A DNA stretch of 53,032 nt from the NCBI GenBank assembly GCA_002281755.1, contig NCHB01000028.1, positions 1-53,032 on the forward strand, in the 5' to 3' direction. This stretch comes from Sulfurovum sp. 16-42-52. Lineage in GTDB: Bacteria > Campylobacterota > Campylobacteria > Campylobacterales > Sulfurovaceae. The translations under genes were made by a program, and so were the position numbers. Positions 37,182-41,581 of the stretch are shown piece after piece. Below the pieces are notes generated by a model. The model made no database searches, was not told the DNA's origin, and saw only the letters and a program-made list of their open reading frames with translations. Numbering within the stretch: position 1 is the first letter of the stretch; each line of letters begins with the position of its first letter.

Positions 37182-37196
37182 ATGAAGGTGAATCTT

Positions 37197-37256
37197 ATGA
37201 TACGTGTCGGCACAGAACGTTATGAAGTACCAGAGGCGGTACCTTTTGGAGGTTAA
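37197..37256 (+). CDS. Possible 19-residue small peptide
   Basis: ATG 37197 is preceded by AAGG with 8-nt spacing and opens 19 codons to a TAA at 37254-37256. The product begins MIRVGTERYEV and ends VPFGG. It lies between apaH and the convergent ATP-grasp gene. Its Phe-Gly-Gly end matches that of the UPF0323 lipoprotein nearby. It may be chance; there is no conservation test here. Confidence 0.25.
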   Translation: MIRVGTERYEVPEAVPFGG

Positions 37257-37270
37257 ACAACCGTATACTT

Positions 37271-38452
37271 CTATCTTTGGACACGGTGTCCAACAAATTT
37301 TGACATATTGTTCAGTATCTTCCCGCCTTTTCTGAAACCAAGTCCGCAGGCTTCATAGGCGTAAAATACACCTGCCTGATAGGAATTGCCCTCTTCATCT
37401 GTGGGCAGCTGTGTGTAAGTTTGGTACACCATTTTATGGCTGTCATACTCACCCGCCATACTCTCAATACTATTTCCCTTTTCATCCAAGATACTCACAG
37501 AACTTCCTTCTCTGCCAAAGACAGGTTTTCTGACTTGTTTTTTTCCTTGCAAAGGCTCAAAAGATGTTTCCAGAAGAAGAGGGTGATTGGGGAAGAGATC
37601 CCATAGGATTTTGAGCAAACCCTTGCTTTGAAAGAGCAGGGTATAGGGAGGATTAAAGATGATCGCTTTTTGGTTCTTTATGATGTTCGTAAGCAGCATC
37701 GCAAGATCTGATTCTTCCAGTGCTATATCTTCCCAAGGGATAAGTTTAAACCACAATTCATAATTTTTATCGTGATAAAAAATACCCTCTTGGGCTGAAA
37801 ATTCTATTTCGTCTATGTAGGCAAATTCTGTCTCAAATCCTGCTTCTGTGGCAATGTGCTGAAGGAGTCTTACCGTGTTTTCCTCTTCTGCATTTCCTCT
37901 GATCGAAGTAAAAAGAAAGCGCCAGCCGTCATAGTGTTCTTCAAAAGAGGAGACATCTTCTTCAAGTGTCACCAAACGTTTAAAATTGTCAACTAGAGCT
38001 TCATAAAGACCATTAAACTGCTGTGCTTCATTAAGCCCATTTTTTTTAAGCATCGCCCATTGTACGATCGCAGTTTCAAAAAGTGCTGTCGGTGTATCTG
38101 CATTAAATTCAAGCAGTTTAACAGGAGCGCCATCCAAGCCTCCTGCAAAGTCAAAACGACCATAGAGATGCCAGTGGACATCACTTTGCCATGATTCCTT
38201 AATGCTCTCTACAAGGTTGAACGGTATACCGATAGCATGGAAAAGATTGTTGTCTATGACATATTGTGCTGCTTCTATGTACATATCATACAGCGTATTT
38301 GCGGCTTCGTAGAACGTTTGCGCTTCCTGTTCGCTAATAAAAAGCAGTGTATCGGATAAATAGGAGCTTTCATCCTGATCTGTATGCCAGACAAACCCCA
38401 AAGATTCTAGGTAGTCTGTATTTAAAGGCGTTATCTTTTCAAAATTTAGCAT
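37271..38452 (-). CDS. Glutathionylspermidine synthase-like ATP-grasp ligase (YgiC/YjfC-type)
   Basis: 393 residues, the synthetase-only form without the amidase domain. RFDFAGGLDGAPVKLLEFNA (~99-118) then DTPTALFE, KPVFGREGSSVSIL (~310-323) and YQAGVFYAYEACGLGFRKGG are those of the GspS/YgiC family. The fold joins an amine to a carboxylate via an acyl phosphate. It starts three bases after the UPF0323 lipoprotein stop, so the two are one operon, as E. coli ygiC follows ygiB. True glutathionylspermidine synthesis is unlikely given this pairing; a ligase acting on its lipoprotein partner or on a cell-surface peptide is an inference. Confidence 0.8.
   Translation of the reverse strand: MLNFEKITPLNTDYLESLGFVWHTDQDESSYLSDTLLFISEQEAQTFYEAANTLYDMYIEAAQYVIDNNLFHAIGIPFNLVESIKESWQSDVHWHLYGRFDFAGGLDGAPVKLLEFNADTPTALFETAIVQWAMLKKNGLNEAQQFNGLYEALVDNFKRLVTLEEDVSSFEEHYDGWRFLFTSIRGNAEEENTVRLLQHIATEAGFETEFAYIDEIEFSAQEGIFYHDKNYELWFKLIPWEDIALEESDLAMLLTNIIKNQKAIIFNPPYTLLFQSKGLLKILWDLFPNHPLLLETSFEPLQGKKQVRKPVFGREGSSVSILDEKGNSIESMAGEYDSHKMVYQTYTQLPTDEEGNSYQAGVFYAYEACGLGFRKGGKILNNMSKFVGHRVQR
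37277..37293. repeat. Perfect 8-bp palindrome at the 3' end of the ATP-grasp gene
   Basis: TTGGACAC (37277-37284) and GTGTCCAA (37286-37293) around one base. It lies inside the last codons of the ligase gene. With a single-base centre it would need to open to form a hairpin, and no T run follows on either strand, so it is a weak terminator candidate or a protein site. Confidence 0.4.
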
Positions 38453-38455
38453 CTA

Positions 38456-39046
38456 TCAACCACCAAAAGAGCTACTGGAAGTACTTGAAGATTTGCCGCT
38501 TCCAAAAAATCCGCTTCTTTTGCTTGTACTGTTTTTAGGGTTGTTAAAACTTTTTTGGCTTTTGGCGTAGGTTGAAGGGGATTTGTACCCAGCTTGTCTG
38601 TTGTTTTGATAGTTTTGATTGCCAAAAAGTTTAGAGCCTATCCAGGAACCTATCATAGCACCGGCAATGCTTGAGAGTAAAACTTCACCAAGACCCATAC
38701 CGCCCTGCTGTGTCATTTGAGGATCTTGTGCTTTGGTAAGATTGGATGTACCGTTATCAATCTTGGCAGCTTCTTCGGCCACCAGTGCATCCATCTCCGG
38801 CTTGGTTAGAACGCGTTCTGTGCCATCAAGTTTTTTAAGCACGATGCGTGTCTCATCTGCTGGGAATTCATCTTTGATCTGGTATTTGCCGGGAGCCGTC
38901 TCTTCGATGATGACAAAGGCGTTTTGGGCTTTGGTTTCTTCTTGTTTGGACTCATTGTTACCAAAACATCCCGTAAGCCCTGTTGCCAAAAGTGCACCCA
39001 GCCCTGTAGCTGTTGCAATGGTTGAAAGTTTCTTTATATGTTTCAT
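38456..39046 (-). CDS. UPF0323 family lipoprotein
   Basis: 196 residues from the ATG at 39046, with GGA 7 nt upstream. The signal peptide ends in the lipobox TGLTGC. The middle binds nothing recognisable; a Gly-rich hydrophobic stretch (GLGEVLLSSIAGAMIGSWIG, ~115-134) could insert in a membrane. The last ~60 residues are Ser, Asn and Lys-rich and end SSSSFGG. UPF0323 is known from Campylobacter and Helicobacter. The Ser-rich tail ending Gly-Gly is like E. coli YgiB, partner of the ligase YgiC; here too a YgiC-like ligase gene follows, 3 bp on. Confidence 0.8.
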   Translation of the reverse strand: MKHIKKLSTIATATGLGALLATGLTGCFGNNESKQEETKAQNAFVIIEETAPGKYQIKDEFPADETRIVLKKLDGTERVLTKPEMDALVAEEAAKIDNGTSNLTKAQDPQMTQQGGMGLGEVLLSSIAGAMIGSWIGSKLFGNQNYQNNRQAGYKSPSTYAKSQKSFNNPKNSTSKRSGFFGSGKSSSTSSSSFGG

Positions 39047-39179: not shown

Positions 39180-40331
39180 TTAGTCCATCTGCTTTCTAAG
39201 GAAAGTTGGCACATCTAAAATATCTTCATTTTCACCATTGTATCCGCCTACAACCATTCTGTTCGCAATACGATTTGTATTGATGTTGCAAATATTTGGA
39301 CTTAGGAGTGTCTCTTGTTTTTTGATGATGGGTTCAGGGATGGAATTTTTGTCTTCAAAACCTGTTGCAACGATGGTGATTCTGACTTCATCAATTGCCA
39401 TATTTTCATTGGTGGTTGTACCAAAGATAACAGAAGCATTTTCATCGGCACTCTCTTCGATGATATTCATCGCTTCACTGATTTCCATGATAGGATAATC
39501 CGGGTGGATGTCAAAGTGAACCAATACACCCATCGCACCATCAATCGATATATTGTCAAGCAATGGTGATTCGATAGCAGATTTTGCTGCATCGTAGGCT
39601 GCGTTTTTACCACAGCTGTATCCTGCACCCATGAGGGCAAGACCTCTGTGACTCATGACTGTTTTTACGTCAGCAAAGTCAAGGTTGATATCATTGTCTC
39701 CATGTGAAAGAATCACTTTGGAGATACCGCCAACGGCTTGAGCAAGAATGTCATCTACCATTCTAAAACTCTCTTTGATGCCAAGATTTTTTTCAACAAC
39801 TGAAAGAAGCTTTTCATTTGGAACAACAATGATAGAGTCTGATTCTCTTTTGAGTTCCTCAAGACCTTCTTTTGCAAGTTTGGTTCTCTTCTTACCTTCA
39901 AACTTGAAAGGGCTGGTTACGATAGAAACGGTTAACGCACCGACTTCTTTTGCAGCTTGAGCAATGATTGGTGCAGCACCCGTACCTGTTCCCCCACCAA
40001 GACCGGCAGAAATAAAGACGATATCTGCGCCCGTTAACATACTTTTGATATCTTCAAAACTCTCAAGTGCAGCTTCTCTGCCTTTGTCAGGAATCATACC
40101 TGCACCCAAACCTCTGGTTGCATTGATGCCCAGTTGCATTTTAAATGGTGCAAGCGAGCTGTCCAGAGCCTGTGCATCGGTATTGGCAACAATCAAATCA
40201 ATACTATTGATTCCCTCATTAATCATGTGGTTAATCATGTTTCCGCCACCGCCGCCCACGCCGATAGCTTTTATTTTTGCACCATTGGTGTGACCTACGG
40301 CTTCAATGATCTCTATTTCAAACTCTTCCAT
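39180..40331 (-). CDS. ftsZ: Cell division protein FtsZ
   Basis: 383 residues. Tubulin-like GTPase that forms the division ring. GVGGGGGNMINHM (~24-36), the tubulin signature GLGGGTGTGAAPI (~110-122), NLDFADVKTVM and a C-terminal VPTFLRKQMD, which is the conserved tail that binds FtsA. AAAGGGAG precedes the ATG. Intact, which contrasts with the broken ftsA just upstream in the same operon. Confidence 0.97.
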   Translation of the reverse strand: MEEFEIEIIEAVGHTNGAKIKAIGVGGGGGNMINHMINEGINSIDLIVANTDAQALDSSLAPFKMQLGINATRGLGAGMIPDKGREAALESFEDIKSMLTGADIVFISAGLGGGTGTGAAPIIAQAAKEVGALTVSIVTSPFKFEGKKRTKLAKEGLEELKRESDSIIVVPNEKLLSVVEKNLGIKESFRMVDDILAQAVGGISKVILSHGDNDINLDFADVKTVMSHRGLALMGAGYSCGKNAAYDAAKSAIESPLLDNISIDGAMGVLVHFDIHPDYPIMEISEAMNIIEESADENASVIFGTTTNENMAIDEVRITIVATGFEDKNSIPEPIIKKQETLLSPNICNINTNRIANRMVVGGYNGENEDILDVPTFLRKQMD

Positions 40332-40367: not shown

Positions 40368-41581
40368 TTAAAAAAGCTGCTTTGCCCAATTTGCCAGTTT
40401 TTTGAGTGGATTTTGATTGTCATGTCCCAAATCAGGCAGTTCGTCAAAAAGGATATTTCCCGTCTCTTCGCTATTGCCTTTTGGTCTTGATGACTCCTTT
40501 ATCTCGTATGGACGAGATTTAGAAGTTGCCTCTGGTTTTGCTGTCTCAGCTGAGCCGATGCGGATATCTCTTAGATTTTCTTCATGGACTACTTTGGAGT
40601 GCAACATGGTTTGTTGGAAATCAATTTCGTACTGTGTATGACCACCTGCTCTGTAAAGCAGTAAGCCAATGACTGTTGAGTAGGCAGGATCTTTGAGTTC
40701 ATCAAAAAGTCCCGGTACATTGTCAGGGTGTGCGACACGTACAGGCAGTCCTGTGAAAATAGCTTGCGCCAACTCCCTGATACCTTTGAGTTTTGTCATC
40801 CCGCCTGTAAGGATGATGCCTGCACCGATTTGTTCTTTCAGTGCAGATTTTTCAAGGGATTTTGCCAAGATCATCAACGCTTCTTCTACACGCGAGAAAA
40901 TGACTGAATGGACAATATCCAAAGAGACGCCATTGCGACTCTCTTCATCTCCGATGATCGGCAGTTCAATGATTTCGTTTGAGCTTTCAGTCAGATTGCC
41001 ATGACGTACTTTGACATTTTCTGCAATCTGTAAAGGTGTATGAAGTGCCATAGAAAGGTCGTTGGTGATGTGGTTTGACCCTACACCTAAAAAATCATTG
41101 TACCTTATGGAGTTTCCTGTGTGGATGACCATATTGCTGGTTTGTCCGCCTAAGTCGATGACTGCGACACCGAGCTTCCATACGGCTGGCGTTCATATCA
41201 ATCGGATCTTCGATAAAGTCTTGGTCATCTACTCTAAAGTTATAGGGTAAGACGTGAATCACGTCATATTCATTGGGGACATTTGCATTATAGAGTGCGG
41301 TTTGCATCACACGGTTAATCTCTTTGATGGAAATGTCTTTATGTGGTATGTTGACAATACCCGTTGAGTTGAGACTTTTTGCATAGGCATTGGAGATCGA
41401 AACTGTAGCTGAAGAGATATTGCTTCCTGCGATACGCTTTGCATCACTAATGGCTTTCTTGATAGATTTTGAAGCAAGCTCGATGTTGGTAATGGCACCT
41501 TTTTTAACCCCTTGTGATTTCAGCGATGATTGCACATATTTTAGTAGAACCGATATCTATAGCTAAAATTGTATCATTCAA
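40368..41581 (-). pseudogene. ftsA: Cell division protein FtsA, disrupted by two internal deletions
   Basis: Translation from TTG 41581 (GGGAGGG upstream, overlapping the chaperone stop) gives ILAIDIGSTKICAIIAE, then the frame breaks near 41520. The next frame continues with KSQGVKKGAITNIELASKS, so roughly 15-20 residues of FtsA are missing as well as the frame. It runs to DMNASRMEA and breaks again near 41175, where about 45-48 residues expected before LGVAVIDLGGQTSN are absent. The remainder to 40368 is normal, including GGMTKLKGI. Two junctions, both losing sequence and frame, exclude a simple one-base error. FtsA anchors FtsZ to the membrane and is usually needed. Either a true pseudogene or lost sequence in the assembly. 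Confidence 0.85.

Follow-up and report, generated by a model that had tools for sequence, protein, structure and literature searches.

A UPF0323 lipoprotein and its adjoining YgiC/YjfC-type ATP-grasp ligase in Sulfurovum: a C-terminal signature shared by ligase partners and a proposed polyamine modification

Described relatives of the ligase

The GspS reaction is known to proceed from a carboxylate through an acyl phosphate to an amide (PMC2702004), and the chemistry common to Escherichia coli GspSA and trypanothione synthetase joins a polyamine to a C-terminal Gly carboxylate through such an amide. Closer to the protein described here are the E. coli enzymes YgiC and YjfC, which are devoid of Gsp synthetase activity according to Sui et al. 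(2012), as cited in PMC12506659, and which are called peptide-spermidine ligases in the title of a 2023 publication and peptide--spermidine ligase in RefSeq. Their genes follow those of the DUF1190 lipoproteins YgiB and YjfM at a spacing of a few bp. A related arrangement is the PspA-linked operon of Ravi et al. (2024), where a GspS-like ATP-grasp protein occurs together with DUF350 and a DUF1190 lipoprotein; in the passages of that work that we draw on, a polyamine link and a PspA/envelope-stress context are discussed for the operon, and the lipoprotein is called metal-chelating, with no proposal that it is the ligase's acceptor. In a wider circle, RimK, the tubulin tyrosine ligase family and PEARL are ATP-grasp ligases whose target is a C-terminus, of a protein or of a scaffold peptide, to which they attach a group as is proposed below, although the groups in question are amino acids and not polyamines.

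The gene pair of Sulfurovum

The window, which is the whole stretch of 53,032 nucleotides analysed here (contig NCHB01000028.1 of Sulfurovum sp. 16-42-52), carries on its minus strand a lipoprotein gene followed by a ligase gene (Table 1). The original prediction had read these as a UPF0323 lipoprotein and a GspS-like ligase in the architecture of ygiB-ygiC, with lipoproteins that are unrelated in the two systems but share a Gly-Gly end, and all of this was borne out. Both open reading frames are present, the first scores 270 bits with NCBIfam PRK04081 (NF003146), for which the cut-off is 194, and the second matches Pfam GSP_synth (PF03738) over residues 13-391 of 393 (E=2e-126), being the sole GSP_synth-type gene of this genome. 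The same order of lipoprotein and ligase, the same ligase family and fold, and Gly-Gly ends are found in ygiB-ygiC and likewise in yjfM-yjfC (YgiB ends in SSRSMGG and YjfM in ARGHWGG). Since the spacer comprises only 3 bp, there is no room for separate transcription of the ligase.

Table 1. Features of the locus, in coordinates of the window
Feature	Position	Strand	Remarks
UPF0323 lipoprotein, proposed acceptor protein	38456-39046	-	196 aa
Signal peptide and lipobox LTG-C (Cys27)	38966-39046	-	from sequence; C27 invariant in the UPF0323 alignment
Gly-rich hydrophobic segment GGMGLGEVLLSSIAGAMIGSWIGSKLFG	38621-38704	-	best-conserved stretch of UPF0323
KRSGFFG motif, proposed ligase recognition element	38501-38521	-	UPF0323 version of the tail signature [R/K]GGFG
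Ser/Gly tail SGKSSSTSSSSFGG	38459-38500	-	proposed acceptor carboxylate is the last Gly
Spacer, lipoprotein stop to ligase ATG	38453-38455	-	3 bp
YgiC/YjfC-type ATP-grasp ligase	37271-38452	-	393 aa, single-domain, without amidase domain, without signal peptide
Active-site stretch R99-D101...K112-E115-N117-ADTPT122 of the ligase	38087-38158	-	aligns with GspSA R316, D318, K327, E330, N332
ftsZ	39180-40331	-	directly upstream of the lipoprotein gene
ftsA-like gene	40368-41535	-	split into two ORFs that differ in frame and overlap near 41.1 kb
Short ORF MKVNLMIRVGTERYEVPEAVPFGG	37182-37256	+	just past an ApaH-like gene and in its frame; ends PFGG

Regarding the surroundings, ftsZ holds the same position in three or more relatives from the same family, and the two frames of the ftsA-like gene probably reflect a frameshift in the sequence. 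The short ORF on the plus strand was considered as a further FGG-tailed protein; it remained unmatched in the fetched loci and was treated as a chance occurrence.

By sequence, the solved structures nearest to the ligase are those of YjfC (7uk6) and YgiC (7uk8), followed by GspSA and trypanothione synthetase, and the same ranking was recovered with an AlphaFold model for which the window protein and 31 homologues served as input (pLDDT 88, pTM 0.89). The model superimposes on YjfC with a TM of 0.84 and a Z of 46.9 over 370 residues, on YgiC with a TM of 0.82 and a Z of 41.6, on GspSA with a Z of ~42 and on trypanothione synthetase with a Z of 34, whereas the similarity is only distant for D-Ala-D-Ala (Ddl) ligases (Z ~8) and for RimK and TTLL6 (Z ~7). 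The protein, which is ~30% identical to YgiC and YjfC, is thus by sequence and predicted fold a ligase of the YgiC/YjfC type (stand-alone PF03738), with a putative peptide-spermidine ligase activity.

A close-up view of the alignment with GspSA, which covers the synthetase part alone and leaves the fused amidase domain without counterpart, shows R316, D318, K327, E330, N332, K498, K533, R538, Q568 and R598 (GspSA numbering) to be invariant. In contrast, the GspSA stretch NADSASCH reads NADTPTAL in the window ligase, with DTPT in place of DSAS, so that S335, S337 and C338 are replaced by T120, T122 and A123; N-A-D-T-P-T is itself invariant in 32 ligases. We place S335 and S337, together with C338, in the glutathione site; the functions of single GspSA residues other than Cys338 are likewise assumed here. 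Such a pattern is the one expected of an enzyme that has kept GspS chemistry and lost the glutathione site, to judge from the aligned residues. Cys338 is named in PMC2702004.

As for the lipoprotein, its C-terminus reads KRSGFFGSGKSSSTSSSSFGG, with SSSSFGG as the final residues. No Pfam match to DUF1190 (PF06693) was obtained for it, and an hhalign comparison of the UPF0323 and DUF1190 profiles was confined to the lipobox (19 columns, probability 40), which leaves the idea of UPF0323 as a divergent DUF1190 family unsupported; beyond the lipobox, the two kinds of lipoprotein resemble each other in the C-terminal motif, with SGFFG in the window against RGGFG or its variants GGFG and GGYG in YgiB and YjfM, and in the Gly-Gly end. 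The last residue was G in 51 of 81 distinct UPF0323 proteins, S in 22 and A in 8, with no other residue found. G occupied position -2 in 67 of them and F or Y position -3 in 71; the Ser-rich stretch ahead of these terminal residues drifts. A further fixed element ~10-20 residues from the C-terminus is [K/R]SGFFG or KSFFG. In one further locus the UPF0323 tail is frameshifted and an alternative frame gives ...SSGFFGG, which likely represents a sequencing error or a phase variant. A probable helix-turn-helix protein with the conserved stretch 'LGITKEAIYNRIRRGTL', for which a Pfam search gave no match, is encoded ahead of the lipoprotein at two UPF0323 loci (L036, L037) and ~14 others from several genera.

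The two genes are inherited together to a striking degree. In 397 Campylobacterota genomes, UPF0323 was matched in 358 and the ligase in 355, both genes being present in 355 genomes, the ligase alone in none and the lipoprotein alone in ~2. The three excess UPF0323 matches comprised a spurious weak match, a locus truncated at the end of a contig and a genuine lipoprotein that has no ligase; the last, which is the sole usable genome in which decay of the tail might be looked for, has an intact GGGFGG tail. A Fisher test on these counts (355/2/0/40) gave p ~6e-53, a value that is descriptive because related genomes are not independent. Moreover, four genera (g1, g4, g19, g23) each contain genomes with both genes and genomes with neither, which indicates that the pair was lost jointly more than once. 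The two genes lie apart and are yet both kept in several Campylobacterota loci (e.g. G020, G023). Second ligase copies were also seen: one genome has a diverged copy next to UPF0323 and a canonical copy at a different place, and in two others the second copy is a C-terminal remnant.

A tail signature in the partners of the ligases

Ligases of many phyla, and of phages, adjoin a gene for an exported protein that is often not detectably related to UPF0323. A motif [R/K]GGFG with a short Gly/Ser tail behind it was found in YgiB, in YjfM and in the partners from Deinococcus, Arthrobacter, Acinetobacter, Azospirillum and Asticcacaulis, as well as in those of phages Motura, Phosso, OC, 44RR and 4_4572, with related forms in ventosus and PJN02. 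The window lipoprotein conforms to the wider signature [RKS]-[GS]-G-[FY]-[GF] within the last 45 residues plus a small last residue, in the form KRSGFFG...FGG. The signature also occurs in partners without a DUF1190 match, namely those of Deinococcus, Arthrobacter, Acinetobacter indicus, Virgibacillus and a Bacillus phage.

The C-terminal 45 residues of every ORF were then searched for the motif [RK][GSQ]G[FW]G at 80 bacterial loci, drawn from 84,980 species genomes, and at 80 viral loci from IMG/VR, which were collected when the motif was already known and therefore represent an independent check. A same-strand ORF with the motif was present at 72 of the 80 bacterial and 66 of the 80 viral loci, and after clustering of the ligases at 80% identity in 34 of 39 bacterial and 47 of 60 viral clusters. 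Opposite-strand ORFs, a control that does not model same-strand genes, contained it in 0 of 2280 bacterial and 0 of 2060 viral cases (0/4,340 together); this control was used because taking the longest upstream ORF as the partner irrespective of the motif understates the signal in GC-rich genomes. Among ~490 same-strand and other neighbouring ORFs, the motif was found by inspection outside partner-type proteins in 4. Several of the remaining viral loci (e.g. L240, L247, L257, L262, L269) show a looser form of the motif, and two of them begin at a contig end. In Campylobacterota, the FF form was present at 68 of 74 loci, compared with 0 of 899 opposite-strand ORFs.

In phages, 138 records matched the ligase and 133 the YgiB-like lipoprotein, the latter having been noted without function in the literature on phage Moon. 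In three of the latter records, from phages of Erwinia, Cronobacter and Citrobacter, the YgiB-like lipoprotein has RGGFG and the Gly-Gly end kept and no ligase is annotated next to its gene; such phages may use the host enzyme. Conversely, no tail-signature lipoprotein was found beside the ligase in the fetched stretch of a few phages (Ac42, DSS3_VP1). A viral search with the Deinococcus ligase as sole query returned nothing, and UPF0323 had no true match in viral contigs.

These observations bear on the possibility that the two proteins serve one pathway and make no contact, the tail signature being needed for export, for membrane insertion or for binding another envelope component. DUF350/YjfL membrane proteins are encoded beside 20 of the loci, and this envelope context, together with the PspA-linked operons and the Gly-rich hydrophobic segment of UPF0323, would suit such an arrangement. 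It would nevertheless leave unexplained why otherwise dissimilar proteins share a C-terminal signature when the ligase is their sole common partner, and why phages carry cassettes of lipoprotein plus ligase, so that we regard it as very improbable. Potassium-channel-like genes were also seen to adjoin the ligase, in Deinococcus and two phages.

The original prediction had singled out the terminal Gly-Gly, and a survey of the partners of YgiC-type ligases upheld it as an enriched feature and not as a required one. Gly-Gly stands at the very end of 27 of 61 non-redundant partners, whereas no other position of these tails has it in more than 8 of 61, and of ~490 neighbouring ORFs, judged by inspection after exclusion of partner lipoproteins that had leaked into the control set, 2 end in this way; the terminal Gly-Gly of the partners is not due to chance. 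With one protein taken per cluster, GG was the most frequent terminal dipeptide in viruses (21/47, then GS, GE, AS, SS and GA), in bacterial genomes (15/34, then GS, SS and GE) and in Campylobacterota with the FF motif (32/35). However, homologues adjoining the ligase may also end in FGS, FNS, FNA, GE, SS or AS, which rules out Gly-Gly as a strict signature. The true signal is the upstream motif with a mostly small last residue, in which GG is enriched and not essential. Gly-Glu ends were seen in partners from Acidobacteriota, Verrucomicrobiota and Bacteroidota MAGs and at several viral loci, and a Gly-specific acceptor would leave them unexplained. Altogether, the partners that do not end in Gly speak against an acceptor restricted to this residue and leave a C-terminal acceptor in general unharmed.

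A tail of this kind could also be a docking site or regulator only, the real product of the ligase being a small peptide-polyamine conjugate. GspS relatives do act on small molecules, and variable terminal residues next to a constant GGFG are what a docking motif would be expected to show. On the other hand, the last residue is restricted to G, S or A in all 81 UPF0323 proteins although the Ser-rich stretch beside it drifts, terminal GG is strongly over-represented, and export of the tail fits poorly with the long-term docking of a cytoplasmic enzyme; we therefore consider a docking role improbable. That the ligase acts on the C-terminus of its partner lipoprotein is strongly supported by sequence comparison, through the conserved tail signature, the co-occurrence of the genes and the polyamine genes in the same cassettes, and the proposal that it caps or extends the lipoprotein C-terminus thus survives without Gly-Gly as its defining feature.

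The proposed reaction and its meaning

Clues to the amine come from gene neighbourhoods. In Achromobacter phage Motura (locus L098, 1770-5363), an annotated homospermidine synthase gene is followed by the lipoprotein, which has RGGFG and ends in RGGFGSTGSSFSAGG, and by the ligase, with DUF350 two genes on. A Motura-like set was found in a proteobacterial MAG, with a synthase homologue assigned by similarity (46% identity), a lipoprotein ending in RGGFGSSAHGFSAGG, the ligase and DUF350. At two Burkholderiales loci, a spermidine-synthase-domain ORF, whose N-terminal part looks by eye like an AdoMet decarboxylase, precedes the lipoprotein, and the ligase and DUF350 come after it. In one genome of Arcobacter type, a ligase copy follows a gene of the arginase/agmatinase family. 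These links, together with the carboxynorspermidine decarboxylase (nspC) encoded in the genome of the window, support a polyamine as the amine donor, without proving it.

Polyamine synthesis was tried as a predictor of the ligase and gave no discrimination, since nspC is present in 45 of 46 examined Campylobacterota irrespective of the pair, and also in lineages that lost it.

The acceptor might be the lipoprotein C-terminus and the amine something different from a plain polyamine cap, such as an amino acid, a peptide, a cell-wall amine, the phosphatidylethanolamine head group or a polyamine shared as a bridge between two lipoproteins. ATP-grasp ligases accept many amines, trypanothione synthetase (TryS) links a glutathione to each end of spermidine and hence offers a precedent for bridging, and polyamine genes are adjacent in just a handful of the examined loci. 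Nonetheless, the closest characterised enzymes are peptide-spermidine ligases, going by the 2023 title, and two unrelated types of polyamine-synthesis genes occupy the same place in the cassettes, which makes this choice of amine rather unlikely.

We consider it probable that the pair represents a substrate and its dedicated enzyme, the ligase amidating the C-terminal carboxylate of the lipoprotein with a polyamine before export. Since the ligase lacks an export signal, the two proteins would meet in the cytoplasm ahead of export, where adjacent translation would help the enzyme to find the fresh pre-lipoprotein. Binding would take place through KRSGFFG near the C-terminus (GGFG elsewhere), ATP would be used to convert the carboxylate of Gly196 to an acyl phosphate, and this would be coupled to a primary amine of spermidine or norspermidine, as made in Campylobacterota by way of carboxynorspermidine. 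Once capped, the protein would carry a polycationic end in place of the carboxylate and would then undergo Sec export and lipidation. The family and fold of the enzyme, its kept catalytic residues and lost glutathione site, the co-occurrence of the genes and the tail signature of the partners come from computation; recognition of the motif, the lipoprotein tail as acceptor, a polyamine as the amine and a reaction ahead of export are what we infer. Against amidation by a polyamine before export stand the need for a ligase without signal peptide to win against the export of its substrate, a last residue that is not fixed (G, S, A, E), a polyamine supply that does not track the ligase, as nspC is kept where the pair is lost, and the separated genes of several Campylobacterota loci together with the Ac42 and DSS3_VP1 ligases, beside which no such lipoprotein was seen in the fetched stretch.

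The chemistry had originally been put forward as undescribed, which does not stand, since the activity is already published, by title, and named in RefSeq for YgiC and YjfC. In the literature searched, where the 2023 work is represented by its title, no description of a general lipoprotein acceptor with a recognition motif was found; the substrate in that work may have been the tails of YgiB and YjfM, in which case the central idea would already have been demonstrated in vitro for E. coli. What is known is thus the enzyme activity of the relatives, and what is new is UPF0323 as a lipoprotein family and the general tail signature for peptide-polyamine ligases.

Taken more widely, we lean towards a general bacterial and phage-borne system of C-terminal polyamine tagging, in which a portable GGFG-type motif and a short tail of small residues on unrelated lipoproteins of many phyla would be served by a cognate ATP-grasp ligase, phages carrying polyamine-synthesis genes or relying on the host ligase. 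If this is true, C-terminal polyaminylation would be a protein modification with its own recognition motif. DUF1190, UPF0323 and many unnamed lipoproteins would thereby gain a function, and there would be a reason for the presence of a ligase, or of just the lipoprotein, in T4-like and jumbo phages. Phenotypes in chemotaxis and virulence have been published for cj0371 of Campylobacter, and the modification may bear on them, provided that Cj0371 is, as we presume, a UPF0323 member. Moreover, the long-open role of YgiC and YjfC becomes testable in E. coli K-12.
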